Positions 37,448 through 51,650 of a stretch of 64,000 bases of DNA are shown here, in pieces; the first letter of the stretch is position 1, and each line of letters opens with the position of its first letter. Source of the DNA: Moraxella haemolytica (lineage in GTDB: Bacteria > Pseudomonadota > Gammaproteobacteria > Pseudomonadales > Moraxellaceae); the NCBI RefSeq assembly GCF_030177935.1, contig NZ_CP089974.1:1054001-1118000 (forward strand), written 5' to 3'. Made by a program: the position numbers and the translations under genes. Under the pieces are notes generated by a model, which did no database searches, was not told the origin of the DNA, and saw nothing but the letters and a program-made list of their open reading frames with translations.

Positions 37448-38014
37448 ATGGACAACGCCACACTCAGAAAAAACATCAAAAAACAACGAAAGGCACTCAC
37501 TCAAAAACAACGGCAAAGATTCGCTTTTCTTGCCGGCTTGCACCTACCCAAGTTATTACTACATCTGCCTAAGCACGCTAACATTGGGCTGTATTTGGAC
37601 GATTTTGGCGAATTGCCAACAGCTCCCATCATGAAGTTCTGCCAAAAATATGGCTTTACGCCCTACTTGCCCATCACCAAGCAAGGCAAACCCTTAACAT
37701 TCGCTCCTTGTTTTTATCAGCCAACCAAAACCCCCTTAAAACGCCACACGCTCGGCATGAAAGAACCCATGACCAAGCCATCATTAACAGCAAAGCAAAT
37801 GGACTGCATCATCTGCCCTTTGGTGGCGGTGGATCAGCTGGGTCATCGGCTGGGCATGGGTGGTGGATTTTATGACAGAACTTTTGCCAATTTTCACGGC
37901 TTAAAGGTCGGTTGGTGCTACCACTTTCAAATGGTAGATAGATTGGCGGTCAATGATTGGGATCAAAGGGTGGATCTGGTGATTACAGATAGCAATATTC
38001 TCAGATTTTTCTAG
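37448..38014 (+). CDS. 5-formyltetrahydrofolate cyclo-ligase
   Basis: Converts 5-formyl-THF to 5,10-methenyl-THF using ATP, 188 residues. The N-terminal basic helix (R-K-N-I-K-K-Q-R-K-A-L) binds ATP phosphates and G-M-G-G-G-F-Y-D-R near residue 138 is the family signature. P-L-V-A-V-D precedes it as expected. E. coli homologue is YgfA (fau). It is the last chromosomal gene before the prophage on this side. Confidence 0.92.
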   Translation: MDNATLRKNIKKQRKALTQKQRQRFAFLAGLHLPKLLLHLPKHANIGLYLDDFGELPTAPIMKFCQKYGFTPYLPITKQGKPLTFAPCFYQPTKTPLKRHTLGMKEPMTKPSLTAKQMDCIICPLVAVDQLGHRLGMGGGFYDRTFANFHGLKVGWCYHFQMVDRLAVNDWDQRVDLVITDSNILRFF

Positions 38015-38297
38015 GGTTAGCTCCATCTTATCCAATAACTCGCCCTATTTGTTGTCATGTGATGACAATATAATGACAAAGAATATATTTTATAATTACT
38101 CGTTCCATCTCATAACCGCTAAACTTTTTGGCTAAAATGTCATGCAAGTAGATGGGTTTTTTATGACTAAATCTTCCCCAATAAAAAACCGCCCACGATG
38201 AATCATGAGCGGTTAAAATCACTGTTTTTTTGATAACAAAAAAGCCAAATAACCCATACATTTTTTAACATTTTTGCAAAAAAAGTGTATAAATTAC
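38015..38297. other. Left prophage boundary region
   Basis: No convincing gene. TTGTCAT-GTG-ATGACAA (38052-38068) is a perfect 7-3-7 inverted repeat directly abutting TATAAT (38069-38074), suggesting a repressed promoter of unknown purpose. A terminator for leftward phage transcription follows at 38181-38214. No tRNA or obvious attachment-site repeat could be found here. Confidence 0.4.
38181..38214 (-). terminator. Leftward terminator at the end of the phage late region
   Basis: AACCGC and GCGGTT close a hairpin followed on the minus strand by TTTTATT. Leftward transcription from tail genes would cross the toxin-like module in antisense and stop here. Confidence 0.6.
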
Positions 38298-38326
38298 TTG
38301 ACTTTTAATGTAGTTTAAACTATAAT
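38298..38326 (+). promoter_or_regulatory. Strong promoter of the Ibs-like module 1
   Basis: TTGACT, exactly 17 bases, TATAAT. The transcript would begin near 38332, at the foot of the first leader hairpin. The upstream sequence (AAAAAAGCCAAATAA, and AAATTACTTG into the -35) is shared with module 2. Confidence 0.75.
38311..38322. promoter_or_regulatory. Palindromic operator candidate in module 1
   Basis: TAGTTTAAACTA is a perfect 12-base palindrome spanning the end of the spacer and the first bases of the -10. A dimeric RHH protein, such as the one encoded downstream, could bind it. Confidence 0.5.
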
Positions 38327-38331
38327 ATGTT

Positions 38332-38401
38332 TATCAAGACAAGGTGTTGCAGCACCAAGCCTTGATAGGTTATCCGCCACCGACCTTGTGAAGTGGTGGC
38401 G
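38332..38401 (+). promoter_or_regulatory. Two-hairpin leader of module 1
   Basis: Hairpin 1 (38332-38367) has outer arms TATCAAG and CTTGATA with an inner GGTG/CACC stem. Hairpin 2 (38375-38401) has CGCCACC and GGTGGCG. The AGGAG ribosome site (38407-38411) follows at once. A capped 5' end and structured leader are typical of stable type I toxin mRNAs. Confidence 0.55.
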
Positions 38402-38419
38402 ACCTTAGGAGATAAGACA

Positions 38420-38485
38420 ATGAAGGCAGTCGTAAAGCTAATTATCATTGTTATCCTGCTACTACTAAGCAACAACGCTTACTAA
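38420..38485 (+). CDS. 21-residue Ibs-like hydrophobic peptide, module 1
   Basis: ATG is 8 bases after AGGAG. The product begins M-K-A-V-V-K-L, continues with nine aliphatic residues (I-I-I-V-I-L-L-L-L) and ends S-N-N-A-Y. E. coli Ibs toxins are 18-19 residues with the same plan: charged residue, L, aliphatic stretch, S-F-S-A-Y. The peptide would sit in the inner membrane and could depolarise it. A homologous peptide with nearly the same ending lies at 56874. Very short hydrophobic peptides can look alike by chance; the duplicated context and antisense promoter are what make this convincing. Confidence 0.65.
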   Translation: MKAVVKLIIIVILLLLSNNAY

Positions 38486-38551
38486 TGGCAGGTAGCCTGT
38501 AAAGGCTGGGGCGGTGGGCAAGCACACCGCCTTCTCCTAAAACTTATGATT

Positions 38552-38580
38552 ATCTTACCAATAATGTAAGGATTTGTCAA
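38552..38580 (-). promoter_or_regulatory. Antisense promoter of module 1
   Basis: On the minus strand TTGACA (consensus), exactly 17 bases, TAAGAT. It directs transcription back across the peptide gene. The -35 abuts the ATG of the RHH gene. Confidence 0.65.
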
Positions 38581-38778
38581 ATGCCTAAGATTGTCAAAAC
38601 CCCAAAAAGCCGTGCCGAAACTCAGCGTGAGAGTGATGAACGCCGTGGCGTAAAACCGATTGGTTTTAAAGTGCCGATAGAATTTGCCGAACTGCTTGAT
38701 GACCTTGCTAAACAAACAGGCAAAACCAAAAACATCATTATCATGGAGGCGGTGGAGCTTTGGGCTAAGCAAGTTTAG
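38581..38778 (+). CDS. Ribbon-helix-helix protein of module 1
   Basis: A 65-residue protein with a basic N-terminal tail (K-T-P-K-S-R-A-E-T-Q-R). A strand (V-K-P-I-G-F-K-V-P) and two helices (F-A-E-L-L-D-D-L-A-K-Q and T-K-N-I-I-I-M-E-A-V-E-L-W-A-K-Q) are the RHH/CopG arrangement. It starts 95 bases after the peptide gene, with TAAGGA upstream. It is a candidate repressor of the module promoter or of the antisense promoter that touches its start. Its 3' end overlaps the convergent tail K gene by 14 bases. Confidence 0.7.
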   Translation: MPKIVKTPKSRAETQRESDERRGVKPIGFKVPIEFAELLDDLAKQTGKTKNIIIMEAVELWAKQV

Positions 38779-39538
38779 CATGACGCACGACAAGCCCAAC
38801 CCTATCCGCCCACCCCTTGCCATAAATCTCACGCACCGACTGCCGTCCGTAGGGGTGGTGCAGGATTAGAGTGTTGCCCACGCAAGGCGGTGTAACTTCG
38901 CTTTTGAGTGTGTCATTGTTGCCGAGCCAAATTAAGGCATGATTAACATGGTGCGTGCGTCCGACACGGCAAAGCAGGACATCGCCGTATTGCAGGTTGT
39001 CTTTGTCCACTTCCACAAAGCCTGCTTTTTCAAAGTTCTGCTCATACAGTGGGGCGTGATTGAGGTCTTCCCACCAAGCGTCTGTGCGGTCAAAATCAGG
39101 CAATTCAATCTCAAACTCACGGCGATAAAAATCACGGACAATGGCATAACAATCTTGCACACCGTGAATGTAATTTCGCCCCAACAGTGGCGGTTTATAC
39201 CCACACGGTTCATAAATACCAAAAGCAGGCTCATCACCATAATCTTGCTTGGACACTGCCACGATGACCCACGCCACACCGTGCAGTTCAATTTGTAATT
39301 TATCCAAATCAGACGGCAACACACCGCCGTCAGGGTGGTTATGGACGATGGCTTGTATCTGCCCCATACTTTCAGCACGGGCATACTCTTTTGGACAAAG
39401 AGTAAATTGCTCATTGTCATGGGCGGTGTTGGTGCAGGGTATGTATTTGTTATTCACAATCACGCCACAGCACTCGGCAGGGTAGCAGTCAAGGGCGTGG
39501 GAGGTAATGTCCGATTTTAATTGTTTGGTTAATTTCAT
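38765..39538 (-). CDS. Phage tail assembly protein K (JAB + NlpC/P60)
   Basis: Lambda gpK-like protein, 257 residues, with two enzyme domains. The JAB/MPN metalloprotease-like N-terminus has E22 and H-N-H-P-D-G-G at 66-72. The NlpC/P60 domain has catalytic Cys at 130 (Q-D-C-Y) and His near 200 (H-V-N-H-A). In lambda-like phages this protein takes part in tail-tip assembly and can cut peptidoglycan. The catalytic residues are all present. It follows L after 8 bases and is the last surviving leftward late gene; I and J are missing. Confidence 0.88.
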   Translation of the reverse strand: MKLTKQLKSDITSHALDCYPAECCGVIVNNKYIPCTNTAHDNEQFTLCPKEYARAESMGQIQAIVHNHPDGGVLPSDLDKLQIELHGVAWVIVAVSKQDYGDEPAFGIYEPCGYKPPLLGRNYIHGVQDCYAIVRDFYRREFEIELPDFDRTDAWWEDLNHAPLYEQNFEKAGFVEVDKDNLQYGDVLLCRVGRTHHVNHALIWLGNNDTLKSEVTPPCVGNTLILHHPYGRQSVREIYGKGWADRVGLVVRHAKLA

Positions 39539-39546
39539 CTTAATTC

Positions 39547-40050
39547 CTATGAGCCAATCAAACTACTGGCAGGACAGCCGCCAAAGGGCAAAGGCTTGTT
39601 TTTACCAAATCGGCGAACGCACGATTTCATGCGACCACCGCATTTGTCCAAAATTGGGTTGTCGGTTGGTTTGTCGTGTTCGTCAAACATTGTCGCCCCT
39701 GTATAGCCGCATTCTTCGCCACGATACTTGCCCACGACCGCCCAATGGCAATAATTGGTAATCTCTCTGACTGGGATTTTTAAGCCCTCTAAATCAATCG
39801 GATTTGACAGCTCAAAAGTAACTTGTTGGGCATTTTCCGATGTTTTTTGTTCCACAAACCAAATCTGCTCTTTACATTCATCGCTTGCCGTAGGGTTGCC
39901 GTTGTCAAAAAAGGTAATTACAACATCGTTTTTGTCGTGATTATGTCCGTGAAAGCGTAAAGTGCCCGCTCCAAGACGGCTTGCATCCAGTTCAAACAAG
40001 GTAATTAGTCCATCTACGGATAATTTTTGAAAGTCGCTGTTTAATGGCAT
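39547..40050 (-). CDS. Phage minor tail protein L, internally shortened
   Basis: Lambda gpL-like tail-tip protein, 167 residues (lambda gpL is 232). Four Cys at 101, 114, 137 and 144 (Y-C-H-W, E-E-C-G-Y, D-K-C-G-G-R, K-S-C) match those that hold the iron-sulfur cluster of gpL. The N-terminal strand region (L-F-E-L-D-A-S) is present, but about 70 residues seem to be missing in frame after residue 47. The truncated copy at 57262 retains part of that region. Likely a non-functional internal deletion. Confidence 0.82.
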   Translation of the reverse strand: MPLNSDFQKLSVDGLITLFELDASRLGAGTLRFHGHNHDKNDVVITFFDNGNPTASDECKEQIWFVEQKTSENAQQVTFELSNPIDLEGLKIPVREITNYCHWAVVGKYRGEECGYTGATMFDEHDKPTDNPILDKCGGRMKSCVRRFGKNKPLPFGGCPASSLIGS

Positions 40051-40060
40051 AAGCCCTCCA

Positions 40061-40090
40061 AATAAAAAACGGAAAAATCACTTTTTCCGT
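40061..40090 (-). terminator. Intrinsic terminator upstream of tail gene L
   Basis: ACGGAAAAA and TTTTTCCGT form a perfect 9-bp stem, then TTTTTATT and the GGAGGG ribosome site of L. Confidence 0.8.
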
Positions 40091-40099
40091 CTTTGTGTG

Positions 40100-40495
40100 T
40101 TATACTTCTTCGTCTGCCAGTTCGTCGGTTGGCTCGGTTTCGCTTGCCAGACTTGTCGTCGGCACAACTTCCACCGCCACGCCAAATTCATCATTAGCAT
40201 AGACTAAATGCAGGACGGTAACAGCTTTGTCATTACCCCAACCTTTAAGCTGGTTAAGTTGGTTGGTCGCCCATGCTAGAATCTCGGCACGAAATGCGGT
40301 GGTGCGGTTACGCTTTAATACGCCATTGTCTTTTTCTCCATTGACGACTTCAAAGCCGTCATCTTCGGGGTAGTAGATAATTTCAATATGATTGGCTTTG
40401 TCGCCGTGCTGAGCCTGCCAAGCGTCCACTTGGTAGATAAAGTCTTGCAAGGTCTTGGCTTCGGTGCGGTTTAGGGTGGTTAGGGTTTGGGTCAT
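40100..40495 (-). CDS. Phage tail-region hypothetical protein
   Basis: Not recognised. A 131-residue acidic soluble protein, with a predicted helical N-terminus (T-L-Q-D-F-I-Y-Q-V-D-A-W), a beta-rich middle and an acidic tail (E-T-E-P-T-D-E-L-A-D-E-E-V). It lies between tail genes M and L and has a terminator on either side. GGAGAT precedes the ATG. Possibly a cargo (moron) gene or a tail chaperone. Confidence 0.6.
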   Translation of the reverse strand: MTQTLTTLNRTEAKTLQDFIYQVDAWQAQHGDKANHIEIIYYPEDDGFEVVNGEKDNGVLKRNRTTAFRAEILAWATNQLNQLKGWGNDKAVTVLHLVYANDEFGVAVEVVPTTSLASETEPTDELADEEV

Positions 40496-40510
40496 GGTTT
40501 ATCTCCGTTA

Positions 40511-40568
40511 AAAAAATACCACCTTGCCAGGTGGCAAAAAATAAAACCCATTAAAATCAATGGGTTTT
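40511..40568 (-). terminator. Two tandem terminators upstream of the 131-residue gene
   Basis: AAAACCCATT/AATGGGTTTT (40543-40568) then TTTTTT, and CCACCT/AGGTGG (40519-40534) then TTTTTTT. Both read on the minus strand. Confidence 0.8.
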
Positions 40569-40598
40569 GGCTTGAGTTGTCAAATTTTACTTAACAAC

Positions 40599-40928
40599 TT
40601 AAAAGGTTTGCTCGAATTTTAGGCTAATTTCCCAAAAATTACCTTTTCTTTGAGAAATTTCATAATCTTGGCAAATGTATTTGGCGGTCGTGCCATGCGG
40701 ATCAGCCCAATAAAAGGGCGTAACACCACCATGCTCATCAAGAAAATCTTTGATGGGCTTGATGACGGTCGCCCAGTCGCCTGTCTTAGTACCACTCCAA
40801 TCGGTGCGTTTATTGTTAATACCAAAACTCACACGCTGGGCGTAGCCGTCGCCAAACTGGGCTTTTGCCACAGAGTGCTTGACGCTGGCAGACGCTCCCA
40901 TGTTCATTTTCCATTTAAAGGTTTTCAT
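40599..40928 (-). CDS. Phage minor tail protein M
   Basis: Lambda gpM-like protein, 109 residues, the family length. The repeated beta pattern and the markers A-Q-F-G-D-G-Y-A-Q-R and F-L-D-E-H-G-G-V-T-P-F-Y-W are typical. It forms part of the tail tip next to the tape measure. It lies after the small 89-residue gene, separated by a terminator. Confidence 0.88.
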   Translation of the reverse strand: MKTFKWKMNMGASASVKHSVAKAQFGDGYAQRVSFGINNKRTDWSGTKTGDWATVIKPIKDFLDEHGGVTPFYWADPHGTTAKYICQDYEISQRKGNFWEISLKFEQTF

Positions 40929-40942
40929 GCACTACTCCAAAA

Positions 40943-40974
40943 TAAAAAATCCCATCAAATGATAGGATTTTTTA
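40943..40974 (-). terminator. Intrinsic terminator upstream of tail gene M
   Basis: AAAAAATCCTATCA and TGATGGGATTTTTT pair with one wobble, followed by ATT and the GGAG ribosome site of M. Confidence 0.75.
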
Positions 40975-40987
40975 TTCAAGTCATTTT

Positions 40988-41257
40988 CTATTTTTTGAAT
41001 TTAGATTGATAAAAATCAAATTCTTGTTCAATAGCATCTTTAGTTTCTTGACTATAATCGGGTGATTGCATCAATCTTTCTTTTAAATCATCCATATAAT
41101 TTAAATAATCATCCAAATCAATAATACCTTTTTCGGCTAAGTAAAGCACCGTACCAGCACTAAACAAACTGTTTGCGTGTAATTGTGTAGCTATCGGCTT
41201 TGCAACACCTTCCGCCAATAGTGCCAAACCTTTCATGTGTTGTTCATTCATAATCAT
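40988..41257 (-). CDS. Phage hypothetical protein after the tape measure
   Basis: Not recognised. An 89-residue, mostly helical protein (L-A-L-L-A-E-G-V-A-K, Y-L-N-Y-M-D-D-L-K-E-R-L) that overlaps the tape-measure stop by 4 bases (ATGA), so it is translationally coupled to it. An internal ATG (residue 3) is an alternative start. Confidence 0.6.
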   Translation of the reverse strand: MIMNEQHMKGLALLAEGVAKPIATQLHANSLFSAGTVLYLAEKGIIDLDDYLNYMDDLKERLMQSPDYSQETKDAIEQEFDFYQSKFKK

Positions 41258-44200
41258 CTCCCATAAAGCTCACCGCCTTGTCGGCGTGCTTGCATAAAAC
41301 GTTGATTGACCATGGCATTCACCTTGTTATCAATCATCTTACCAATAGTTACCATCATATCACCATTTGGCATTTGTTGCACATCTGTTTTTTCACCTGT
41401 ATAGTTATTGATAATCACTTTGGCTTCACCACGACCCTGCAAACGATTGAGCGTATTATCAAGGTTTTGGGCGGTGTGTTTAGGCAGTACTCGTTCGCCT
41501 TTTTCAAGATTCCAAGTGCCAGACTTGGGGACGGACATGATGCCGTCGTGGGCTTGACCGACTGGCATGACCACCGACTTGATAGCACTGATGATTTTCG
41601 CCCCATGCGACACCGCCAACGCCATATCAGCAAGTCCTGTCGGAAAGCCTTTGGCGAGACCCTGTGAAACGGCTTGTTGCATGGCAAGACCTGCCTGTGC
41701 AATCGCAAAACCCTGCTGCATGGCAAACATCGCACGGTAGACCTTAGATTGCTTGCCAAGTCCGTCTCTGGCGATGTTGGCAAGTGAGCCAAACAGACTT
41801 TCAGACTCTGTCAGTATGAGCTTGTTTTTGGTCTCCTCGTAGTGCTGTTTTGCCGTCGCTCGTGCCTGTTCGCCTTGCTTGGTGATGCGTGTCAAAGCGT
41901 CTTCGTTGCCCTTGTACAGCTCTTGTTGCCGTTCCAAAAAACCCTCAATCATATCAAGTCTGCTTTGATGCTCTGATTCTAGTTGCTCAATAGCATTCAT
42001 CGGCACGCTTGGCAAATCAAGGGCTTGTTTGAGCACGCCAAAGCTGGCATCGAGCGGATCGATGGCACTACTCATCTGCGGCATACTCTGCATGAGCTTG
42101 TGCTGCTTGGCGATGACATCAAGCTGGTTTTGCAATGTGCCAAGTTTTTTACTCTCTTCATCTTGCAAGCCATCAAGTATGTCTTGATAAGCGGTCTGTG
42201 TAGCAAGCATCTGTTGGCGTAGCTTGAGCTGTTCGGCTTGATTTTTTATGAGTGTGTATGCTTCGGTATCATCAAGCTCTGCTAAGTGGGCATATTTATC
42301 CAAGGTGGCTTGGTATTCATGCTCAAACACAAGCAGCTCTTTACTAAAATCCCCCTTAGCCTTGACCAGCTCGATTTGCTTGTCAAGCTCACCGATGCTC
42401 TGATTGGACGCATGAGCGTATTCGTGCCAATCTGCCAACGCCATCTGCGATAAAGCAACGCCCAGCTTGCCTGTGGTCTTGATAACCCGTTTGCCTTGTT
42501 CGTTAAACTCAATCACTTCATCTTTGAGTAAGGAGAACTTATGGCGTGAGTTGTCAAGATGTCCTAACAGCTCAGCCAATTTGCCTGTCTGCCCACGGTT
42601 CATGTTATCGATGGCGGTCTGCTGTACCAGCTTGTCCAGCTCATCATGAATGATGTCAATGTCCATCGCTCGCGCGGCGTCTTGCAGCTGCTTTTTTAGT
42701 GCCTTATCAATGCCCTTAAACTTGCCGTTGGCAATCTCCCAGTTTACCTTGTCGATTTCAAGATTTAAGGGGTGTGCCATCTCATAGCGTAGCTTTTCCC
42801 ATTCTGACCGCTGTTCCTTGATGGCATCGGTCAAAGACTTTTGGGTGTTTTCGTTTTTCTTGGTGTTCTTGGTGGCGTTTTCGCTCGCCTTGCTGGTGGC
42901 ATCCAGTGAACCAGCCAAACCATCGTGAGCGTCTTTGGATTGGTTGGCGGCATCTGTTATTTTGTCGTGGGCGGCAAGTAATTTGCCTTCAAGATACTGG
43001 TTATTGTTTGATTTGACTGCATCAAAAAATCCAGCCACGCCAAAGTCTATGCTGCCATAGCTCAATCGCCCAAAGGACACCGAATCTAATCGCTTGATTT
43101 GCCCACCACCAAAAAAATCGGACACGGCGTTCATGCCATCGATGAGAAAATTGATATTTTTGCTGATGTGGTTGACTAAGCCTTCAAAGACAGAGATGGC
43201 AAAATTACCAATGCCCTTGAACACATTAGCGATTGCCGTGCCAAGTGAGCTGATGTTTTTCCAAGCGTACTGCACAAAGGTCTTGATGGTCGCAGCTGCC
43301 AAATCAAACACCCGAGCGATGATTTGTAATACCCCCACAAAGCCACCACGAGTGCCTTTAAACAGCCCACCAAAAAAGCCCAAGACCTGATTGGTGGACT
43401 GTTTGCCATCTGATCTAAAACGGCTAAAAAAATCCAGCGTAACATCGCCAAGCCATTTAAATCCTTTAATGCCAGCATCGACCATCTGCCCTAGCAGCTC
43501 ACCTAGCACCGCCGTCGCCTCAGACAGGCTCTCCATCGCCTTTTGTAGTCCCATCGTGCGCACGACAATCGCAGCGATGACAGCACCGATTGCCATTAAC
43601 GGGTGGGCTAGGATAATGCGACCAACAGCGGTAAAGGCGGTGCCAATACGATTGACCGCACCAGCAGCAAGGGTGGCTGTCCCAACAAAAGCTCGTTTGG
43701 CGACGGTGCTGGTAACAATTGCACGAGTGTAGCCAGCCAAGCCTATCGTCCCTGCCTTAATCGCTGCACCAAATCCCACCACGCCACTGACAGTGGAGCG
43801 TGTGATGTTAATAAAGGCGGTCTTTGCTCCATTGATTGTCAAAAGACTTCTGGTGTAGCTGGCAGCTGAACCAATATTGGCAATCGTCGCCTGAGCAAAT
43901 CCTGTCATCGCAGCACTGGCACGAGTGATGGCTGATGCAGTCACATTCTTGATGTTAGTAAGGCTAAGGTTTGTGTGAAGGTAAGTCGTCAAAGCAACCT
44001 GCACACTTGCCAATCTTGCCCCAAAGCCATCAATCGCCATCGTCGCACGAGCCACACCGCCCACCATCGCTGCGCCAATCGTTTCGGCAAATCTGGCGGT
44101 GGTTGCGGTGGCAGTGTTTTTAAAGTGGGTTAAGATGGCAACTTTTTCGGTATAGGTTTGTACCCCATAAGCTGATGTTATCCAAGATTTTGCATTATCC

Positions 44201-45135
44201 AAAGTGGTTAAAGTTGATTTTTTAATTGAGACAACAAGACTTTCGGTATTTAATTTTGCCAATACCCATGCATGAGCCATTTTGACCCCAATCGCAGTCG
44301 CTGCTGCCCCTGCGATTGTTGCAATGGTTTTTAGGTTTTGTCCCACAAAGGTAAGCACATCAGAGATTGCCCCAGCGATGCCTGTGGTCTCATTGATGAT
44401 GTCATGCACCAAATAGCCGAAGTTGTCTTTGATGACTTGCCAGCCTTGCGACATGGTAAAGTTGGTTTTGCCCACCATCTCTTCAAGAGCCTGCGTCGAA
44501 CCTGACACAGCTTCATAGACCACATCGGCGGTGATTTTACCTTCTTTGGCAAGGTCTCTTAGGGCAGCTGTCGCCACACCCATTCGCTTGGCAATCAGCT
44601 CCATCAAGATGGGGGCTTGCTCGGCAACCGAATTAAATTCATCACCACGCAACGCCCCAGAACCCAGCGCCTGACCCAGCTGGGTAAGGGCGGCAGCTTG
44701 AGCCTGTGCCGAACCACCGCCAAGATTCATCGCCATGGTCATATTTCGGGTAAAATCAATCACATTTTGCTGTGATTTGCCCAGCTGTGATAAGGCACGC
44801 TGGCTACTGGCATATAAATCCACAACACCTTCAAAGCTAGACCGCTGCTCATTGGCGATATTGCGTAGCTGGCGTTGTACAGCGTTAAACTGCTCACTGC
44901 CATCGGTAGCGAGCTTAACTTTACTTGCCAAAGATTGCATTTTGTCGGCAGCGGCAGCGATGGTGGTTAATGTGCCAGCCCCAATGAGCGTACCTGCGTT
45001 GATTTTGTCTAGGGCTTTTTGGGCAAAACCTGCAAAGCCTTTTAGTTGCTGTTCGGCTTGCTTGGTGGCTTTTTGGATATTACGGCTAAAATTAACCGTA
45101 TTTGCACCAAGTACAATGTTAATTGCCAATGCCAT
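41254..45135 (-). CDS. Phage tail tape measure protein
   Basis: Sets tail length and is ejected with the DNA; 1293 residues. The N-terminal domain (about 1-280) carries the tape-measure core (F-N-S-V-A-E-Q-A-P, then G-K-I-T-A-D-V-V-Y-E-A). Long helices follow, with hydrophobic Ala/Gly-rich segments (about 270-600) that could cross a membrane during ejection, then coiled-coil regions to about 1150. The C-terminal K-G-E-R-V-L-P-K-H-T-A-Q-N-L is a common tape-measure end. It is intact, the largest gene of the prophage. A terminator and CAAAGGAAAT precede its ATG, and the same 5' sequence is repeated at 45838. Confidence 0.92.
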   Translation of the reverse strand: MALAINIVLGANTVNFSRNIQKATKQAEQQLKGFAGFAQKALDKINAGTLIGAGTLTTIAAAADKMQSLASKVKLATDGSEQFNAVQRQLRNIANEQRSSFEGVVDLYASSQRALSQLGKSQQNVIDFTRNMTMAMNLGGGSAQAQAAALTQLGQALGSGALRGDEFNSVAEQAPILMELIAKRMGVATAALRDLAKEGKITADVVYEAVSGSTQALEEMVGKTNFTMSQGWQVIKDNFGYLVHDIINETTGIAGAISDVLTFVGQNLKTIATIAGAAATAIGVKMAHAWVLAKLNTESLVVSIKKSTLTTLDNAKSWITSAYGVQTYTEKVAILTHFKNTATATTARFAETIGAAMVGGVARATMAIDGFGARLASVQVALTTYLHTNLSLTNIKNVTASAITRASAAMTGFAQATIANIGSAASYTRSLLTINGAKTAFINITRSTVSGVVGFGAAIKAGTIGLAGYTRAIVTSTVAKRAFVGTATLAAGAVNRIGTAFTAVGRIILAHPLMAIGAVIAAIVVRTMGLQKAMESLSEATAVLGELLGQMVDAGIKGFKWLGDVTLDFFSRFRSDGKQSTNQVLGFFGGLFKGTRGGFVGVLQIIARVFDLAAATIKTFVQYAWKNISSLGTAIANVFKGIGNFAISVFEGLVNHISKNINFLIDGMNAVSDFFGGGQIKRLDSVSFGRLSYGSIDFGVAGFFDAVKSNNNQYLEGKLLAAHDKITDAANQSKDAHDGLAGSLDATSKASENATKNTKKNENTQKSLTDAIKEQRSEWEKLRYEMAHPLNLEIDKVNWEIANGKFKGIDKALKKQLQDAARAMDIDIIHDELDKLVQQTAIDNMNRGQTGKLAELLGHLDNSRHKFSLLKDEVIEFNEQGKRVIKTTGKLGVALSQMALADWHEYAHASNQSIGELDKQIELVKAKGDFSKELLVFEHEYQATLDKYAHLAELDDTEAYTLIKNQAEQLKLRQQMLATQTAYQDILDGLQDEESKKLGTLQNQLDVIAKQHKLMQSMPQMSSAIDPLDASFGVLKQALDLPSVPMNAIEQLESEHQSRLDMIEGFLERQQELYKGNEDALTRITKQGEQARATAKQHYEETKNKLILTESESLFGSLANIARDGLGKQSKVYRAMFAMQQGFAIAQAGLAMQQAVSQGLAKGFPTGLADMALAVSHGAKIISAIKSVVMPVGQAHDGIMSVPKSGTWNLEKGERVLPKHTAQNLDNTLNRLQGRGEAKVIINNYTGEKTDVQQMPNGDMMVTIGKMIDNKVNAMVNQRFMQARRQGGELYGR

Positions 45136-45163
45136 AATATTTCCTTTGAGTAATAAAAAACCC
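45116..45163 (-). repeat. 48-base direct repeat, copy 1 (tape-measure start)
   Basis: Covers the first codons of the tape measure, its ribosome site and the base of the terminator. It is identical to 45838-45885. Confidence 0.9.
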
Positions 45164-45178
45164 TGCCAAGGCAGGGTT
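45153..45178 (-). terminator. Intrinsic terminator upstream of the tape measure
   Basis: AACCCTGCC and GGCAGGGTT form a perfect 9-bp stem with a 2-base loop, followed by TTTTATTACTC and the CAAAGGAAAT ribosome site. Confidence 0.82.
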
Positions 45179-45192
45179 AAGAAAAGTTGTGA

Positions 45193-45636
45193 TTAATTGT
45201 AAAATACATCTATATCAATCGGCGTACTACAAGCGATGGGGTAGCAGTCTTGCATTCGTTTTAATGCTTTGTCATCTGCCTTGAGCGTTAAAAAACGCCC
45301 ATCTTTTAGCAATACACCCACATAGTGCCAAATTTGTTGTTTGACATCTGTACCGCCCACCGCAATTGTCGCACCAATCCCAAGCAGCGGATTAACGCCT
45401 ATCAGTATTGCACCAGCACCCATTGCGGTAAGATTGCGTTTGGTGCGTGCAAAGTCATTATCTCCATAATCACTTTGTAGCAATGCCATGCCTAAAATGT
45501 CATCCGTTGGTATTTTAATCGTTTTACCCCAAAATTTAGGTAACAAAGCGATGCCTGTGTCTGTTAATGAGACAAAGACATGCTCTGGAAAGCCTTTGGT
45601 GTAAAACAATTTGCAATTCATTGTAAGAAAATTCAA
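45193..45636 (-). CDS. Glycine-zipper phage protein C
   Basis: Not recognised by name. 147 residues (an internal ATG at 45621 is an alternative). A beta-rich N-terminus (I-A-L-L-P-K-F-W-G-K-T-I-K-I-P) is followed by a Gly/Ala-rich hydrophobic hairpin (about 72-95, M-G-A-G-A-I-L-I-G-V-N-P-L-L-G-I-G-A-T-I) and a C-terminal strand K-D-G-R-F-L-T-L-K-A. The plan is shared with the proteins at 45922 and 46802. It ends in its own terminator just before the tape measure. Possibly membrane-associated. Confidence 0.6.
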   Translation of the reverse strand: MNFLTMNCKLFYTKGFPEHVFVSLTDTGIALLPKFWGKTIKIPTDDILGMALLQSDYGDNDFARTKRNLTAMGAGAILIGVNPLLGIGATIAVGGTDVKQQIWHYVGVLLKDGRFLTLKADDKALKRMQDCYPIACSTPIDIDVFYN

Positions 45637-45752
45637 AAAACAGATACCTTAATTATACCCACTTTTGATTTTCTTGCAAGTCTGCAGTTAAATTAAGTAA
45701 GGTAGAATTTTCCCATTCTGTAATCCTGCAATCCGTAGGACGCTTCACCCTA

Positions 45753-45857
45753 CTACTTTTTTTGATATTTGGCAAACATCGCCATCAGTGCCTTAGCATC
45801 TTTTTGGGCTTGTCGCTCTGCTTGATACTGCTCAACGATGTTAATTGCCAATGCCAT
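45753..45857 (-). pseudogene. Tape-measure start remnant (34 codons)
   Basis: M-A-L-A-I-N-I-V identical to the tape-measure N-terminus, then switching after codon 8 to E-Q-Y-Q-A-E-R-Q-A-Q-K-D-A-K and ending M-F-A-K-Y-Q-K-K. It looks like the 5' end of a tape measure joined to the 3' end of another phage gene. Confidence 0.6.
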
Positions 45858-45885
45858 AATATTTCCTTTGAGTAATAAAAAACCC
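45838..45885 (-). repeat. 48-base direct repeat, copy 2
   Basis: Identical to 45116-45163. The two copies are 722 bases apart and enclose glycine-zipper gene C, so they could recombine to excise it. Confidence 0.9.
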
Positions 45886-45906
45886 ACCGACTAAGGTGGG
45901 TTTTTT
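45877..45906. terminator. Intrinsic terminator after glycine-zipper gene B
   Basis: AAAAAACCCACC and GGTGGGTTTTTT form a perfect stem around GACTAA, usable on both strands. Confidence 0.85.
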
Positions 45907-45921
45907 AAATTATGTTGTGAT

Positions 45922-46323
45922 TTAAGAAATATATTTTAAAAACTGATCATATTTTTTCTTATCAAGCTGCACAATAGCGGATTTTCCATCGGTAAATTCA
46001 ATACAAGCAACATAAACATCTTTGGTGTGGTTTGGCAACTTACTACCAAACCACAATGTCGCAAGTGCAGGAAAGACACCTGCACCAAACAGCATTGCTC
46101 CCACAGTCATGCTTAATGCACCATTTTGAACTGAATTTGCCAAGGTTTCTACTTTTTCGGTATCGACCAGCTCAAATTTATGTACTTGGGTGGATAAATT
46201 ATATACTTGGCTTTTGTTTGTTTCTTTATCAGTCATGGCAAAGAAACGACCAGTTGAAGCCCCACCATAAAGCACAAAATCATCAGAATGCAATATTTTA
46301 ATACCAAAAATAGCAAATCCCAT
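45922..46323 (-). CDS. Glycine-zipper phage protein B
   Basis: Not recognised by name. About 133 residues from M-G-F-A-I-F-G at 46323 (frame open to 46329). Same plan as C and A: beta-rich N-terminus (K-S-Q-V-Y-N-L-S), a hydrophobic Gly-rich hairpin (about 75-97, M-T-V-G-A-M-L-F-G-A-G-V-F-P-A-L) and T-D-G-K-S-A-I-V-Q-L near the end. It starts 28 bases after the tape-measure remnant at 46352 and ends in a strong terminator. Confidence 0.55.
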   Translation of the reverse strand: MGFAIFGIKILHSDDFVLYGGASTGRFFAMTDKETNKSQVYNLSTQVHKFELVDTEKVETLANSVQNGALSMTVGAMLFGAGVFPALATLWFGSKLPNHTKDVYVACIEFTDGKSAIVQLDKKKYDQFLKYIS

Positions 46324-46351
46324 CAGCAAAGGTTGTCTGTACCAGACTAAC

Positions 46352-46744
46352 TTAGGTTGATAAAAAAAGCAAGAAGTTTTTTAGCTTGTCCATTTGCTCG
46401 GACGCTGCCTGTGCCGAACCTGTGGCAGTAATCAGGCTTGCATTTAAAACATCAAACTCACGGCGTACAGACACCATGCTACTGACAGAAGCAAATACAC
46501 CTGTAGCAGCTGCAATTCCTTTGGCAATAATACCACCCATCTTAGATAGCTTGTTAAGACCCAAGGTGGCTTTTTGGGTGTGCTGTGTTAAGTTATTCAT
46601 GCCTTTAGACGCTTGGCTTGTGGCATGAGTGATGGAAGATTGCATCTGCTGGGCGACTTGCTTTGATTGCTTGCCGACTTTGCTGATGTTTTTGGTGAAT
46701 TGTGCGGTGTTTGCCGCCACATGAATCTCAATACCCAATGACAT
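46352..46744 (-). pseudogene. Truncated second tape-measure gene (5' part)
   Basis: 130 codons starting M-S-L-G-I-E-I-H-V-A-A-N-T-A-Q-F-T-K-N-I-S, a tape-measure N-terminus different from the full gene. It reaches the family segment L-I-T-A-T-G-S-A-Q-A-A and stops shortly after at F-L-L-F-L-S-T. The rest of the gene is absent. I start at 46744 because TTGGAG lies 9 bases upstream; the frame is open for 9 more codons through the terminator. Confidence 0.75.
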
Positions 46745-46756
46745 GAATTTCTCCAA

Positions 46757-46783
46757 TAAAAAAGCACTCATTACGAGTGCTTT
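46757..46783 (-). terminator. Intrinsic terminator between gene A and the truncated tape measure
   Basis: AAAGCACTC and GAGTGCTTT form a 9-bp stem, followed on the minus strand by TTTATT. Confidence 0.78.
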
Positions 46784-46801
46784 GCGTTGATTTTGTCGGC
46801 A

Positions 46802-47212
46802 TTATCCACCCAAAGTTAGGTAGTCTGTGCTTTTGGCGTGATGCTTGATTTTTTGGGTATCTTTACTGCTGGCTTTAACAATTAAACTGCGTCCATCATC
46901 AAAAATAAGCTGCAATAAGTGCATTTTTTTCGCACCCAATAATGAGCCAACCACAGCACCTGCCATACCAGCAAACATACTCTCGGTAGCGATTGCCAGT
47001 GCACCACCAAGTAACGCACCATCTATCATTGATGGTTGATAATCGCCATCTTGAGTGATGATTTCATTGACATGAGCAAGGTTTTCTTGACGCAGTACGA
47101 TATTTTTGCCAGTGTGAATACACTTTAAGGAAAAACCACCCAGCATATAATATAAAGGTTGTTTTTTGTCAAAATCATCAGAGGCAATAAAGTCTAATCG
47201 CATGGCGACCAC
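46802..47212 (-). CDS. Glycine-zipper phage protein A
   Basis: Not recognised by name. 136 residues (an internal ATG at residue 4 is possible). A beta-rich N-terminus (F-S-L-K-C-I-H-T-G-K-N-I-V-L), a long Gly/Ala hairpin (about 65-93, G-A-L-L-G-G-A-L-A-I and G-M-A-G-A-V-V-G-S-L-L-G) and D-D-G-R-S-L-I-V-K-A give the plan shared with B and C. It ends at a terminator just before a tape-measure start. Confidence 0.58.
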   Translation of the reverse strand: MVAMRLDFIASDDFDKKQPLYYMLGGFSLKCIHTGKNIVLRQENLAHVNEIITQDGDYQPSMIDGALLGGALAIATESMFAGMAGAVVGSLLGAKKMHLLQLIFDDGRSLIVKASSKDTQKIKHHAKSTDYLTLGG

Positions 47213-47279
47213 CTAAAATAAAGATACTTCATACCATACCTCAAATTATCCTAAAATTCAAGCAATGGCAAGCAAATGC

Positions 47280-47564
47280 CTAATGCAAATAATGCTGTTT
47301 TTTGGCACGATGCTTATCAAGGAAATCTTGGGCTTGCTTACGCCTTTCGGCAAAAGGCATGAGACTACCTGTCGCCTGTTCGTTTAATGCATCAAAGATT
47401 AGCCCTGTGCTTTTGGATAGCTTAAAGAATTTTTGACTCAGTACATCAAGGCATCTTTGTAGCTCCCTGATTTCTGTGGTAACTCGGTCATACTCCATCA
47501 AGCCCACCGTCCGCCAAAAGGCGGTCAGCACGAAAGCCCCACAAGCGTGCTTGCAGGGTTTCAT
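47280..47564 (-). CDS. Phage hypothetical protein with structured leader
   Basis: Not recognised. The frame runs for 94 codons, but the first 22 read through two hairpins (CCTGCAAGC... and CCGCC/GGCGG), so the protein more likely begins M-E-Y-D-R-V-T-T at 47498 (72 residues). That part is helical and charged (E-I-R-E-L-Q-R-C-L-D-V-L, F-L-D-K-H-R-A-K-K). A related hairpin core, ACAAGC..GCTTGCAGGGT, occurs at 55143-55162. Confidence 0.5.
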   Translation of the reverse strand: MKPCKHACGAFVLTAFWRTVGLMEYDRVTTEIRELQRCLDVLSQKFFKLSKSTGLIFDALNEQATGSLMPFAERRKQAQDFLDKHRAKKQHYLH

Positions 47565-47582
47565 AATGAAAAGTTTAGTTAA

Positions 47583-48396
47583 TTAATAATAACGACCAAC
47601 ATCCCAATGTTTATTGGTAATCATGTCAGGGTTCATGCCATCATAGCCCAAATGTTTGCCGATGGTGTTGGCTTCTATTGCCGCATGAATGATATGGTCA
47701 TGGATTTGTCCTGATAAGCGTGGCGACAAGGCACGGAAGGCTCTTCGATGGCTTTATACCAAGAATAAATAAACTGTGTATGCCACGCTAGGTGTTGGGC
47801 ACTGATGGATAAGCGTTCATTCATACCGCCTTTTGATTTTACCATCAGTTCATGCACATATTCCACCGCTTGTAGGATTTGTTCTTTTGACAGTTCTTTG
47901 ATTTCATCAATACCAAATCTTTGATGCACCATTTTATAAATCGTGGCATAGTCCAATCTCAACACCCCAGTGGCTAGACTGACAGCGTTACGGAGCGGTA
48001 GCGTATCGTCTGATGACAGTTTGGGCAAGCAAAGTATCGCCCTGTGTTTAGATTGTCAAATGCTCGGATAACCATTAGGCTGAATTTTGCACTTATCCAC
48101 ATACCGTAACGGATTACCAGTTCACGGCAAACGAATGTACCACCTTTTTTGCCTTCTGTTGTTGTATATGCGATACTCATCAAATTTGATGAGTTTGATT
48201 TTTCAAGCTCAATTTCTTTGATAAGCTCTTGTGTTTCAGCATTACGCATAAAGTTTGATGGTTGGTGTTTGCTTGCACCGCCAGAAACTTTATGCAGATC
48301 GTTTAGGGAAAATAAGCCGTTATGTTGGCTAATTGAAGTGTTTGCAACAATAAGATGACATAGTACATTACCTTTTTCAGTTGGTAGAAAGCCCAA
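47583..48396 (-). pseudogene. KilA-N-type phage antirepressor, two frameshifts
   Basis: The first part has the KilA-N signature (L-F-S-L-N-D-L-H-K-V-S-G-G, then G-G-T-F-V-C-R-E-L-V-I-R-Y-G-M-W-I-S). Near 48025 the frame must shift to reach D-T-L-P-L-R-N-A-V-S, the start of the C-terminal antirepressor domain. Near 47735 a second shift is needed to reach G-Q-I-H-D-H-I-I-H-A and the final K-H-W-D-V-G-R-Y-Y. No ATG is in frame at the start; TTG at 48396 is the outermost candidate. In an intact phage it would oppose the lysogeny repressor. Confidence 0.78.
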
Positions 48397-48945
48397 AAGG
48401 GCGGATAGGAAGCTGAAAAACCGCTGTACTAACGGCGTGTGGTATTGGGTATTTCCACACCTTCCTACCCATAAAAAAGGTAATCGTAAGGATTGGCAAT
48501 TTTTGTGGGCACAAAAAAATCACAGATTTCGCTTGTGATTGGCGAGTACAAAAGAAGTTTTTCAGGCTTTGTGTGGTTATTCTATAAAAATCAAAATTTA
48601 TTGTCAAGATATTTTTTGATTATTTTTAAATGCTCAAATTTGAGCATTTAAACTTAATTTTCTGAAATTTCCCCAATTAAGGGGGCTAGGGGGTTCAGAA
48701 ACCGAAAACAAGAACGGTTGGATTTATTCGTGTAGCAAGCTACCTTATTTCATCGCCCCCCTAACATAATTTTAGCGATGGCGGAAATCCGCCAACGGTT
48801 ATTTTTTGAGCGATACGCAAATTTGCGTATGTCATGAAAGGGAATTTTTGACAATAAAAAACCGCTTGGGCTTTCGGGTGCGGTTATCCGCTAGTTACTA
48901 AGGTTCTGACACCTTACGCACATCATACCCAACCCACAGCCTTTG
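48397..48945. other. Non-coding prophage segment with palindrome and terminator
   Basis: No convincing gene. ATACGCAAATTTGCGTAT (48813-48830) is a perfect 18-base palindrome, a strong operator candidate. GGCGGAAATCCGCC (48779-48793 region) is a small hairpin. A terminator on the minus strand at 48855-48885 (AACCGC/GCGGTT, then TTTTTTATT) lies downstream of the Doc gene. The remaining sequence shows nothing recognisable. Confidence 0.45.
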
Positions 48946-48984
48946 TCAATCCAAATCATTAAAAATCAGTTCAGAAGCATTCAT
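48946..48984 (-). pseudogene. 12-codon remnant of a phage gene start
   Basis: M-N-A-S-E-L-I-F-N-D-L-D then TGA. It has the AAAGGAAAT ribosome site and an upstream terminator (49001-49026, ACCGCTC/GAGTGGT then TTTTTATTA), the same design as the tape-measure start. It may be what is left of a tail gene removed by deletion. Confidence 0.3.
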
Positions 48985-49000
48985 AGATTTCCTTTGGGTA

Positions 49001-49026
49001 ATAAAAACCACTCACGATGGAGCGGT
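49001..49026 (-). terminator. Intrinsic terminator after doc
   Basis: ACCGCTC and GAGTGGT pair over 7 positions with one wobble, followed on the minus strand by TTTTTATTA. Confidence 0.6.
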
Positions 49027-49047
49027 GGTAAATAAGCAGCAATACTG

Positions 49048-49425
49048 TCATTGTGCCAGTTGATACAGACAGTCAGCGACAGTCCTAGCAAGCATCTCGT
49101 GTGGCTCGTCATTTTCTACAATCTCCACCATCAAATCATCCAAGCCGACATTGGCAGGAATGGAAATGCCTTGCACTTCTAGGAATGCCAGCATCACGGA
49201 TAAGCCTGTGCGTTTATTGGCATCGACAAAAGCGTGTCCTTTGGCAATAGCAACGCCATACCAAGCAGCAATCTCAAAAGCATCATCAATGCAATTGTAG
49301 TGCATTTGTTGGTCTATGCGACCAAGTACACTTTCAAGTCTGTCAAGATGAACGCCTGCACGCCCCACGCCTGTTTGGGCAAGGATTTCATCGTGAACCG
49401 TGATGACAAAAGCTGTGCTAATCAT
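49048..49425 (-). CDS. doc: Doc/Fic-family toxin (death on curing)
   Basis: 125 residues. The Fic active site H-A-F-V-D-A-N-K-R-T-G starts at His 64, with the A-K-G-H lead-in typical of Doc. Phage P1 Doc phosphorylates EF-Tu and stops translation. The motif is intact, so the toxin should be active. It overlaps its antitoxin gene by 4 bases (ATGA). Located among late structural genes on the same strand, where tail genes would normally lie, it probably entered as a cargo gene. Confidence 0.9.
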   Translation of the reverse strand: MISTAFVITVHDEILAQTGVGRAGVHLDRLESVLGRIDQQMHYNCIDDAFEIAAWYGVAIAKGHAFVDANKRTGLSVMLAFLEVQGISIPANVGLDDLMVEIVENDEPHEMLARTVADCLYQLAQ

Positions 49426-49583
49426 CGATATGCCAGTTTTTGCAGCTCTTCTTTATGGGCTTTGATCACACGCTGAGTTGCATGAGCAACCAGTCGGCGA
49501 GTTGCTTCGTCGTCGCTTAATTGCATTGGGACAATCGGTGTGGTTGGGCGTTTGATGGGTTCGGTTGCCAATTTTTTAAGCAT
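49422..49583 (-). CDS. Antitoxin of the Doc toxin
   Basis: 53 residues, ATG at 49583 with AAAAGGAGT 5 bases upstream, stop overlapping doc. The N-terminus is basic (M-L-K-K-L-A-T-E-P-I-K-R-P) and the C-terminus helical (E-A-T-R-R-L-V-A-H-A-T-Q-R-V-I-K-A-H-K-E-E-L). It does not show a clear Phd fold. The helical tail may plug the Doc active site. The role is inferred from the coupled arrangement. Confidence 0.7.
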   Translation of the reverse strand: MLKKLATEPIKRPTTPIVPMQLSDDEATRRLVAHATQRVIKAHKEELQKLAYR

Positions 49584-49660
49584 TGGCGACTCCTTTTAAG
49601 TTATTGTGAATCAATTGAACTATTTTAGCCAAAAAACAATAGTTTTGCAATCATCGCCAT

Positions 49661-50089
49661 CTAACCCTTCAATTTATCAATCCGCTCGCCCAATTTCTTT
49701 TTAAATCGCCGCACCGCTTCGTCTTTGTTATGATCAAAAGCAGGTCGCAAAAATGGCACAATGTTTTTTAACACTAAAGTCAGATACTCTCGCCCACTTG
49801 CATTGTCTGCCAGTGGTTCGCCCACAATCTCATACATTCGCCCTATGTGTTCTACTCGCATTGTGTTATCAATATCCGTGCGATAACGGATTTTGGCTCT
49901 TGCTGTGATTTGGCTGTCCTGTGCCTGCCCTGCGATGATGTCTTTGACCGATAAGGGGGTAAATTGCCCCCATAAGGTCAAACTATGCTCCCATTGGCTG
50001 ACTCTTCCTGCCCCTGTCAAAGATGAACGGCTGGCGGTAGGGCGGTAGAGTTTTAGGCGGTGGCGTAATTGACCTGCTTGGATTGCCAT
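49661..50089 (-). CDS. Fused phage head-closure / HK97 gp10-like protein
   Basis: 142 residues. Residues 1-108 are a head-closure (SPP1 gp16-like, Phage_H_T_join) protein: L-R-H-R-L-K-L-Y-R-P, then R-V-E-H-I-G-R-M-Y-E-I-V. The last 34 residues (P-F-L-R-P-A-F-D-H-N-K-D-E-A-V) are instead the typical C-terminus of HK97 gp10-type tail-completion proteins. This is best explained by an in-frame deletion of roughly 100 codons that joined two neighbouring genes. The tail terminator and major tail genes that should follow are missing. Confidence 0.8.
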   Translation of the reverse strand: MAIQAGQLRHRLKLYRPTASRSSLTGAGRVSQWEHSLTLWGQFTPLSVKDIIAGQAQDSQITARAKIRYRTDIDNTMRVEHIGRMYEIVGEPLADNASGREYLTLVLKNIVPFLRPAFDHNKDEAVRRFKKKLGERIDKLKG

Positions 50090-50386
50090 TTACACCCCCA
50101 TCACATGATAAGGGGTAAGCAGGTACTGTACGCCAAATGGCACTTGAGTGATTGTTACCATGTTTGTTTTTGTTGCTTCTCGATTCTCATACCAATGAGC
50201 AATAAGCATCAAGCAGGCTTGATTGATTGATGGCGTGTACTCTAAATCACCGCCATTATCTTCAAACTCTCGGCTAGTAAAATTGCTGACATAGTCATAA
50301 GCAGCACTAATATAGCTACGCAACAGCTCATCTTCATCGTCATGCTCAATGCGACACTGATGCTTGACTTGTTCAAGGGTAATCAT
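50090..50386 (-). CDS. Phage head-tail connector protein (gp6-like)
   Basis: 98 residues, the HK97 gp6 size. An N-terminal helix pair (L-E-Q-V-K-H-Q-C-R-I and D-E-L-L-R-S-Y-I-S-A-A-Y-D-Y-V) and I-A-H-W-Y-E-N-R-E are family marks. It forms the ring between portal and tail. It ends one base before the next gene starts. TTACCC-rich leader sequence with AAAAGAATG start. Confidence 0.88.
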   Translation of the reverse strand: MITLEQVKHQCRIEHDDEDELLRSYISAAYDYVSNFTSREFEDNGGDLEYTPSINQACLMLIAHWYENREATKTNMVTITQVPFGVQYLLTPYHVMGV

Positions 50387-50467
50387 TCTTTTGCTTTACC
50401 TTTTGTTTTTTTCTCAATATCTGCTATTTTCCCCCATACACCCCAAGCCTTGCTTGGGGCTTTTATG

Positions 50468-51649
50468 TTATTTTGCTTGCAAAGTGCCGTAAATAAATGC
50501 TTCTGGTCTATACACTGCTAAAGCTAATCGCTCTTCACACAGCACGGTTACTAAGTTTTTAACAAAATCATCTTCATTTTCCGTTGCAACAGCGACAGAA
50601 GACAGTTGTCTATCAAAGATTTGTGCACCCAAATTAAACGCACCAGTTAAAAATTTACCCGCCTCCATGGCGGTCGTCTCAACGACAGGCAACCCCCACA
50701 AAGTGCGGTTGGCTGAACCTTGAGGCAAGCCGATAATGTGTCTGCCATCTTTGTCTTTTTCTAGCTCAATCTTCGCTCAATCAATTGGATTTAGCACCAA
50801 ACCAGATGCTGGATATTCCGCCAAATAAGCCTGCAAGACTGCCAAGCGGATCTGATCAATGATGCTATAATTTGCCATCGATGCCTTGTCAGAAAAAGCC
50901 GTGGCTTGTGGAATAATGCCTTTTAGATTGCCATTTTCGCCATCGCCATTGAGCAATTGTCTATCTTCAACCAGTTTTAAACCGTACATCAAGCGACCGT
51001 TGATATAGCTTGATAACATTGATGCGTCATCAAGAATTTGTCGGCTTGCTTTGACAAAGTGAGCAAGCGTACGCACTGACACAGTCTCTGTACCAAATTT
51101 GATGTGCGACTGAGCTTTTTTATCGCCTTCGTTTTCTTGTGCTGCCGCCGAGTTTGTAAAACCAGTCTCTTTGACATACTCAACAGCGTTGCTATCAGTC
51201 GTGCCTGCCATCAACAAATCACGCACACGCAACTTTTGATTTGGTGGTGCGATGATGCCTTGTAGTCTTTGCGTTTGCACCAACGCACCTGCTGCACCAT
51301 CTGTGTCTGTTGTCGCCGATGTGATTGTTGCTTTTACCTACAAAGACGCACGGTTGCCTTTTACTGGATTTTGGGCAAATTGTTTGAACGATTCAGATTC
51401 AAACAGCTTTCGTCCTAACGGTTGATCTGGTACAGACGCACTGCTACGACGAGCTTGTTTTTGTTCAACATCAGCCAAGCGTGTGGTTACCTCGTTGATA
51501 CTTTGCAGTACAGCATCAACATCGCCTTTGATGTTGTCTAGTTTTTGTTCACCCAAGCTCATGCGACCTTTTAGCTCTTCGCCCAAGCCCTTGACTTTTT
51601 CTGTTGCTTTTTGTAGTTCTAAAGCAAGCTCTTTACTTGATTGTGTCAT
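50468..51649 (-). pseudogene. HK97-type major capsid protein, two in-frame stop codons
   Basis: One continuous frame of 393 codons interrupted by TAG at 51338-51340 and TGA near 50777-50779. The first 103 residues form the helical delta (scaffold) domain (E-L-A-L-E-L-Q-K-A-T-E-K-V). The capsid fold follows (V-K-A-S-R-Q-I-L-D-D, L-V-L-N-P-I-D-[stop]-A-K-I-E-L-E, G-L-P-V-V). The second stop stands where HK97-type capsids have Trp, so TGG to TGA. The first probably replaced Gln (CAG to TAG). Both are transitions. No frameshift is present. Confidence 0.85.
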
Positions 51650-51650
51650 A

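Follow-up and report, generated by a model that had tools for sequence, protein, structure and literature searches.

To our knowledge, the purpose of the Ibs/Sib toxin-antitoxin loci of Escherichia coli is unsettled. Strain MG1655 carries five ibs copies, whose Shine-Dalgarno sequence (SD) and coding sequence (CDS) are covered by the antisense RNA Sib, and the part of the account drawn on here describes ibs/sib as toxin and antisense RNA only (PMC4147584). According to part of a second account, IbsC depolarises membranes and its C-terminal part is needed (PMC8309996). More generally, the relevant part of a third source counts a non-translatable primary transcript, in which the SD is paired to an anti-SD, among the major hallmarks of type I systems (PMC6733600).

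The window analysed here, the whole stretch of 64,000 nucleotides from Moraxella haemolytica, contains at 38298-38580 a locus that a first-pass annotation had likened to ibs/sib. The promoter, two leader hairpins, AGGAG, 21-codon gene for a hydrophobic peptide and facing antisense promoter listed in that annotation are all present, and our analysis goes beyond it with a ribbon-helix-helix (RHH) gene at 38581-38778, an anti-SD at 38534-38540, a second copy of the module, a probable operator and the association of the toxin with a partner gene. We consider it likely that the locus is an Ibs/Sib-type toxin module in a phage form, in which three controls (a repressor, an antisense RNA and a locked mRNA) would act on a membrane-active peptide. 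The features of copy 1 are as follows.

38187-38214, minus strand: terminator-like hairpin that could end leftward transcripts (number of such sites in the scan at chance level)
38298-38326, plus strand: toxin-operon promoter TTGACT-17-TATAAT (11 of 12 consensus matches; comparable promoters before most related copies)
38311-38322: palindrome TAGTTTAAACTA overlapping the -10 box, probable RHH operator (taken alone, p 0.11)
about 38335-38366, plus strand: leader hairpin 1 (sequence and RNA folding)
about 38375-38401, plus strand: leader hairpin 2 (sequence and RNA folding)
38405-38411, plus strand: SD TTAGGAG (predicted to be locked by the 3'UTR)
38420-38485, plus strand: Ibs-like toxin CDS, 21 aa, peptide MKAVVKLIIIVILLLLSNNAY (PF13956 match, codon-position signal)
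38510-38531, plus strand: 3'UTR hairpin (sequence and RNA folding)
38534-38540, plus strand: anti-SD CTCCTAA (predicted to pair with the SD at 38405-38411)
38552-38580, minus strand: antisense (Sib-like RNA) promoter TTGACA-17-TAAGAT with TG before the -10 box (conservation over modules)
38414-38570, minus strand: putative Sib-like antisense RNA (match to SIB_RNA, RF00113, model positions 1-147)
38581-38778, plus strand: 65-aa RHH protein, probable autorepressor (phrog_3887, E 9.7e-17; structure model)

The 21-aa peptide matched the Pfam family Ibs_toxin (PF13956) with 22.3 bits (E 1.2e-4), below the gathering score of 27, and gave no match in NCBIfam or PHROGs. Among the related peptides of at least 20 aa, which make up 56 of the 87 distinct ones, 20 matched PF13956 at E 0.01. 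Identity at codon positions 1, 2 and 3 was 0.44, 0.75 and 0.38 over the 87 distinct peptides, with flat flanks of about 0.32 and 0.28 on either side of the CDS, in a set chosen partly by hydrophobicity, which alone favours codon position 2. The K-12 Ibs/Sib loci resemble the module in their short hydrophobic peptide with an S-x-x-[AV]-Y end, in the antisense RNA over SD and CDS (putative here), in the presence of several copies per genome and, as seen in an intermediate described below (L215), in the leader. They differ from it in that no RHH neighbour was found at the annotated loci ibsA-E, and the scores in the window lie below the curated cut-offs.

On the opposite strand, 38570-38414 matched the full Rfam SIB_RNA model with 24 bits (E 0.036; gathering score 56); the match begins within the antisense promoter and need not mark the ends of the transcript. 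Statistics of single promoter sites were close to chance (a scan of copy 1 found 5 sites in 2 kb against 3.3 +/- 1.9 in shuffles), and the case for the promoters thus rests on conservation. In 64 modules, obtained from 87 distinct toxin-partner modules by removing duplicates and stretches of unsuitable length, the antisense promoter scored 10.27 against 8.23 in shuffles (mean z 2.51; individually above p 0.1 in 13 of the 64), and the opposite strand of the same stretch, serving as control, scored 8.30 against 8.18. By sequence comparison, a convergent antisense promoter over SD and CDS is kept across these modules. This bears on the proposal that the peptide is non-toxic and serves the RHH gene as leader peptide or attenuator, a reading suggested by a short same-strand open reading frame (ORF) that separates the promoter from the regulator gene. 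It appears very improbable to us, given the conserved antisense promoter, the existence of partner-less tandem copies, and a conserved hydrophobic peptide (S at -5 in 78 and Y as the last residue in 68 of the 87 distinct peptides) that is like toxic Ibs.

Two intermediates connect the window with E. coli. The IMG/VR locus L215 carries the peptide MMKLIIILIVLLVISWPAY and an RHH gene, with a leader and 3'UTR that by eye plainly resemble those of E. coli ibs; used as a query, it matched 5375 of 5426 E. coli genomes, and reached a coverage of at least 80% only in strain D53-1 (94%). In the D53-1 prophage (NZ_CM161506.1) two adjacent genes are annotated by PGAP as an Ibs family toxin and an RHH protein. 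L215 matched SIB_RNA with 111.2 bits and D53-1 with 103.6 bits, and the other eight of the ten sources, the window included, gave no match at the gathering score. Both intermediates have RHH partners belonging to the same family, and they tie the peptide and antisense strand of the window to true Ibs/Sib. The D53-1 module has the same parts as that of the window, a palindromic promoter (by eye) and a direction opposite to the flanking phage genes; it differs in a SIB_RNA score far above the cut-off and in that its two genes are named separately by PGAP. Two STnc100 sRNA matches lie near it (L289, 8606-8785 and 9737-9918).

Seven strong copies occur in the genome to which the window belongs (2.12 Mb, one contig). 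The window contains two of these, and copy 2 (56777-57265) has the following features.

56777-56805, plus strand: promoter TTGGCT-17-TACAAT (promoter scan)
56794-56804: palindrome TTGTAATACAA at the -10 box (p 0.093)
56874-56939, plus strand: toxin CDS, peptide MYKLIQIIVLIVLLLISINAW (SIB_RNA match of 33.5 bits on the opposite strand, below cut-off)
57012-57018, plus strand: anti-SD TTCCTTA (p 0.080)
57025-57052, minus strand: antisense promoter TTGATT-16-TATGAT (p 0.060)
57062-57265, plus strand: partner protein of group B (phrog_9399; fold not established)

A model, R1, was built from 25 of the copies, so that the scores of these training copies follow by construction. RNAalifold gave no pair on the 25-copy alignment, probably because the 3' parts align badly, and R1 is therefore a sequence-only model. 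Within the genus there were 25 strong matches (E < 1e-11) in 10 of 22 genomes, and at E 1 matches in 21 of 22, mostly noise; 31 of 348 genomes of the family matched at E 1e-3, the weaker ones uncertainly. Independently of R1, nine sites spread over seven genomes had a Pfam match overlapped by an Rfam match on the other strand, and in 199 genomes of the family neither PF13956 nor RF00113 gave a match above its curated cut-off. Class-wide matches of R1 were mostly chance-like, and among the 12 genomes other than the window's own only one (G598, another family of the class) looked real by eye. It contains a lone peptide, MIKIIILVVLLLLLSFPTY (L184), very like IbsE and without a partner, near a stretch that is tRNA-like by eye. 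Elsewhere, L069 (G063 contig 15) consists of three partner-less toxin modules in tandem, about 400 nt apart, in a genome that holds more copies, and at L191, L201 and L302 the toxin frame is altered (C for the final Y, or frame-shifted) and the partner gene still matches.

The view in the first-pass annotation that the family is known only from enterics proved too narrow, since we found the module in Moraxella, Mannheimia phages, Gilliamella, Pasteurellaceae and a Kingella plasmid. A group A or B partner is present in 13 distinct M. catarrhalis phages. The annotation had proposed looking for the peptide in Moraxellaceae phages, and it was found in all six of the M. catarrhalis phages examined (one ending in C). 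The partner also occurs in ten Mannheimia phage records (duplicates included), of which the one examined, PHL101, has the peptide; the plasmid of Kingella potus carries two modules in tandem. A published account of M. catarrhalis prophages names HicB antitoxins, and a whole-word search of it returned no Ibs, ribbon-helix-helix, CopG, Arc or antisense (PMC4619438). In the wider literature, as far as titles and abstract starts among the matches listed go and with subscription papers mostly outside the scope, we found neither a Moraxellaceae Ibs/Sib locus nor a link between Ibs and RHH.

All seven copies in the window's genome are followed by a partner gene. In 41 distinct copies examined, a small gene whose start is close to the antisense promoter follows the toxin in 31 and ten are partner-less, the latter including the L069 tandem triplet and five weak or outlying matches (L180-L184). 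Partners were flagged mechanically, with the three tandem L157 copies and L184 set to partner-less by hand; the E. coli copies are excluded from both counts, and the strong copy L170 (G092 contig 53) is in neither set. The partner proteins form four sequence groups, A to D, of which only group A is confirmed as RHH: five proteins of groups B to D gave no Pfam match over the cut-off, the model of the group B partner at 57062-57265 (pLDDT 76.8) matched no RHH structure, and a profile comparison of groups A and B gave a match over two helices with a probability of 11%.

The association was also evident when the search started from the RHH gene alone. In IMG/VR this yielded 127 relatives, of which 79 loci were kept, 74 with at least 250 nt upstream and five without. 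A hydrophobic peptide of at most 27 aa lay upstream in 74 of 74 loci under a loose rule and in 71 of 74 under a strict one, against 5.3% and 0.64% of control windows (n=2332), the 74 loci including many near-identical contigs; distinct peptides number 38, of which one (L201) is frame-shifted. Group B relatives gave the same picture, with a peptide (one frame-shifted, three ending in C) at each of the 22 loci that had upstream sequence out of 23 found. Of 13 partner loci in GTDB genomes (Gilliamella, nine; Pasteurellaceae, four), 12 had the peptide, the exception (L277, Gilliamella) being a partial match. Across the class the partner gene is rare, occurring in 2 of 274 genomes, one of them the window's own.

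The locus might nonetheless be a plain two-part Ibs/Sib type I pair, to which an unrelated phage regulator is a neighbour by chance. Such a pair would agree with E. coli K-12, where ibs/sib has no RHH neighbour and is described, in the part of the source used, as toxin plus antisense RNA only (PMC4147584), and with the ten distinct copies that have no partner. The peptide found upstream of all 74 RHH relatives and all 22 group B relatives with upstream sequence, and a promoter palindrome that in 31 copies follows the partner and not the toxin, speak against a chance neighbour, and we regard this explanation as unlikely. The Ibs/Sib architecture proposed in the first-pass annotation finds good support in homology and conserved anatomy, and is incomplete as a two-part unit because of the small gene after 31 of 41 copies and the likely operator on the toxin promoter.

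An AlphaFold2 model of the 65-aa protein had a pLDDT of 91.6, and its best Foldseek match was DNA-bound CopG (1ea4; prob 0.97, rmsd 1.0 over 40 columns, E 0.3), followed by Arc, with no match at E 0.001. PDB sequence searches gave nothing useful. As modelled, the protein of 38581-38778 has a CopG-like RHH fold. CopG and Arc are small autorepressors at palindromic promoters; the partner protein is like them in its predicted fold, and unlike them it adjoins a type I toxin and matches Pfam RHH_1 below the cut-off (16.4 of 20.5 bits).

A palindrome encloses the toxin -10 box in many copies. Relative to promoter shuffles, its mean z was 1.64 in partner-plus copies (n=31) and 0.15 in partner-less ones (Mann-Whitney p 9e-4), the latter being a small control set (n=10) with several weak promoter matches. 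Symmetry is centred 4 nt upstream of the -10 box, where 66% of arm positions are paired (profile mean 33%, sd 9%), compared with 45% in partner-less copies, which have their maximum of 56% at -6. Over the 31 copies, distances between partners correlated with distances between -10 regions (r 0.58, p 5e-4), and toxin distances were uncorrelated with those of partner (0.04) or operator (-0.01). The correlation of partner with DNA peaked sharply at -14 to +10 (0.41, 0.63, 0.47), other promoter windows giving at most 0.18. Copy 2 and phage Mcat9 have operator and partner type in common and different toxins, as do the pairs L151/L177 and L167/L168, and these natural toxin exchanges fit a palindrome that tracks the partner protein and not the toxin.

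When only RHH group A was considered (n=72), partner and operator correlated weakly (0.107 at -13 to +5, 0.127 at -8 to +4) and less than at -40 to -28 (0.185), so that the strong correlation over 31 copies lies largely between partner groups. A CC before the -10 box occurred with a ribbon Lys in 25 of 50 distinct pairs and with a non-Lys residue in none of 8 (Fisher p 0.008). In a scan of 23 windows in group A, the ribbon window was best (partial r 0.189, p 0.015 uncorrected, n=47), and a C-terminal window also scored (0.145, p 0.005). The comparison with K-12 is not clean, as a mechanical promoter search of the five copies gave only weak matches, one of them (ibsE) with a palindrome. Altogether, these patterns suggest that the palindrome on the toxin -10 box is probably the operator of the partner protein. 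RHH proteins are also common type II antitoxins, and in copy 1 the ATG of the RHH gene abuts the antisense -35 box, both of which would suit an RHH protein acting otherwise on the toxin, as protein antitoxin or as driver of the antisense promoter. We find this improbable, as it is the DNA around the sense -10 box that correlates with the partner, with windows wholly upstream of the RHH start reaching at most 0.15, and the two RHH helices of the 65-aa model end at residue 64 with no further domain.

The third control would lie in the mRNA itself. The RNA 38333-38600 had a folding z of -5.3, and its SD is predicted to pair with 38534-38540 at a probability of 0.62 for the first base and 0.96-1.00 for the others. 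The mean unpaired value over 38406-38412 was 0.03 at full length and 0.76 if the RNA ends at 38528. For 79 of the 87 distinct modules the means were 0.13 at full length, 0.46 with a 3'UTR of 22 nt and 0.29 with a shuffled 3'UTR; copy 2 goes against the trimming trend (0.19 full, 0.09 trimmed). Helices between SD and 3'UTR scored 16.59 in cognate and 14.50 in exchanged combinations (p 2e-4, n=94), and two-sided changes such as TAGGAG/CTCCTA, AAGGAG/CTCCTT and GGAACAG/CTGTTCC were seen, the pairing often being not significant in single copies. In K-12 the corresponding helix has 5-6 bp, individually not significant in a widened scan (p 0.14-0.39 each). Taken over the set of modules, the 3'UTR is predicted to pair with the SD and co-varies with it. 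We know of no relation of the AapA/IsoA and Hok/Sok peptides to the Ibs-like toxin, and of no RHH partner in these systems. Their mRNAs resemble that of the module in an SD sequestered by an anti-SD, sometimes far downstream, as described in part of one source (PMC6733600).

Among ORFs of at least 80 aa, called mechanically and not taken from annotation, the closest one downstream is opposite in direction in 26 of 31 partner-plus copies, the closest one upstream in 23 and both in 19; in PHROG, the neighbours scanned matched tail, head and replication genes, among others. With the module head-on to its neighbours, the surrounding phage transcription would run antisense through it. In the window, a prophage (38187-57675) is bounded by the two Ibs modules and by two similar minor tail gene stretches (39554-39874 and 57266-57577, 72-88% alike), and it looks broken, since the terminase large subunit is in separate pieces (53489-54040 and 54574-55113). 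Just left of copy 1 lies a 5-formyltetrahydrofolate cyclo-ligase gene (37448-38014); E. coli sibC/ibsC likewise adjoins the equivalent gene fau, possibly by coincidence. The window also contains a bacterial small SRP RNA (22243-22339, minus strand, 68.7 bits).

From homology, anatomy, partner association and co-variation, all obtained by computation, we infer the following course of transcription and repression, the toxicity of the peptide and a role for the module. One promoter would produce the mRNA for the peptide and probably also for the downstream RHH protein, a dimer of which would bind the -10-box palindrome and repress its own operon. The facing promoter would give a Sib-like antisense RNA over the toxin SD and coding region, possibly joined by antisense transcripts from the flanking phage operons, to which the module is often head-on. 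In the full-length mRNA the 3'UTR anti-SD would lock the SD, and translation would proceed only from trimmed or refolded mRNA. A probable role of the module is to stabilise the prophage, or to arrest the cell on failure of the repressor or antisense RNA.

It is tempting to speculate that Ibs/Sib first arose in phages as a module with three brakes, mixing type I with type II-like control and often lying head-on in phage operons, and that the E. coli chromosomal loci are derived copies minus repressor and operator; we give this origin about even chances, the opposite direction being also possible. That the same toxin recurs in prophages beside a regular repressor-like partner points to an origin in mobile elements and to a testable switch. 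One type I module would then combine protein repression with antisense control, and the RHH gene provides a search key for a toxin that is too short for ordinary searches.
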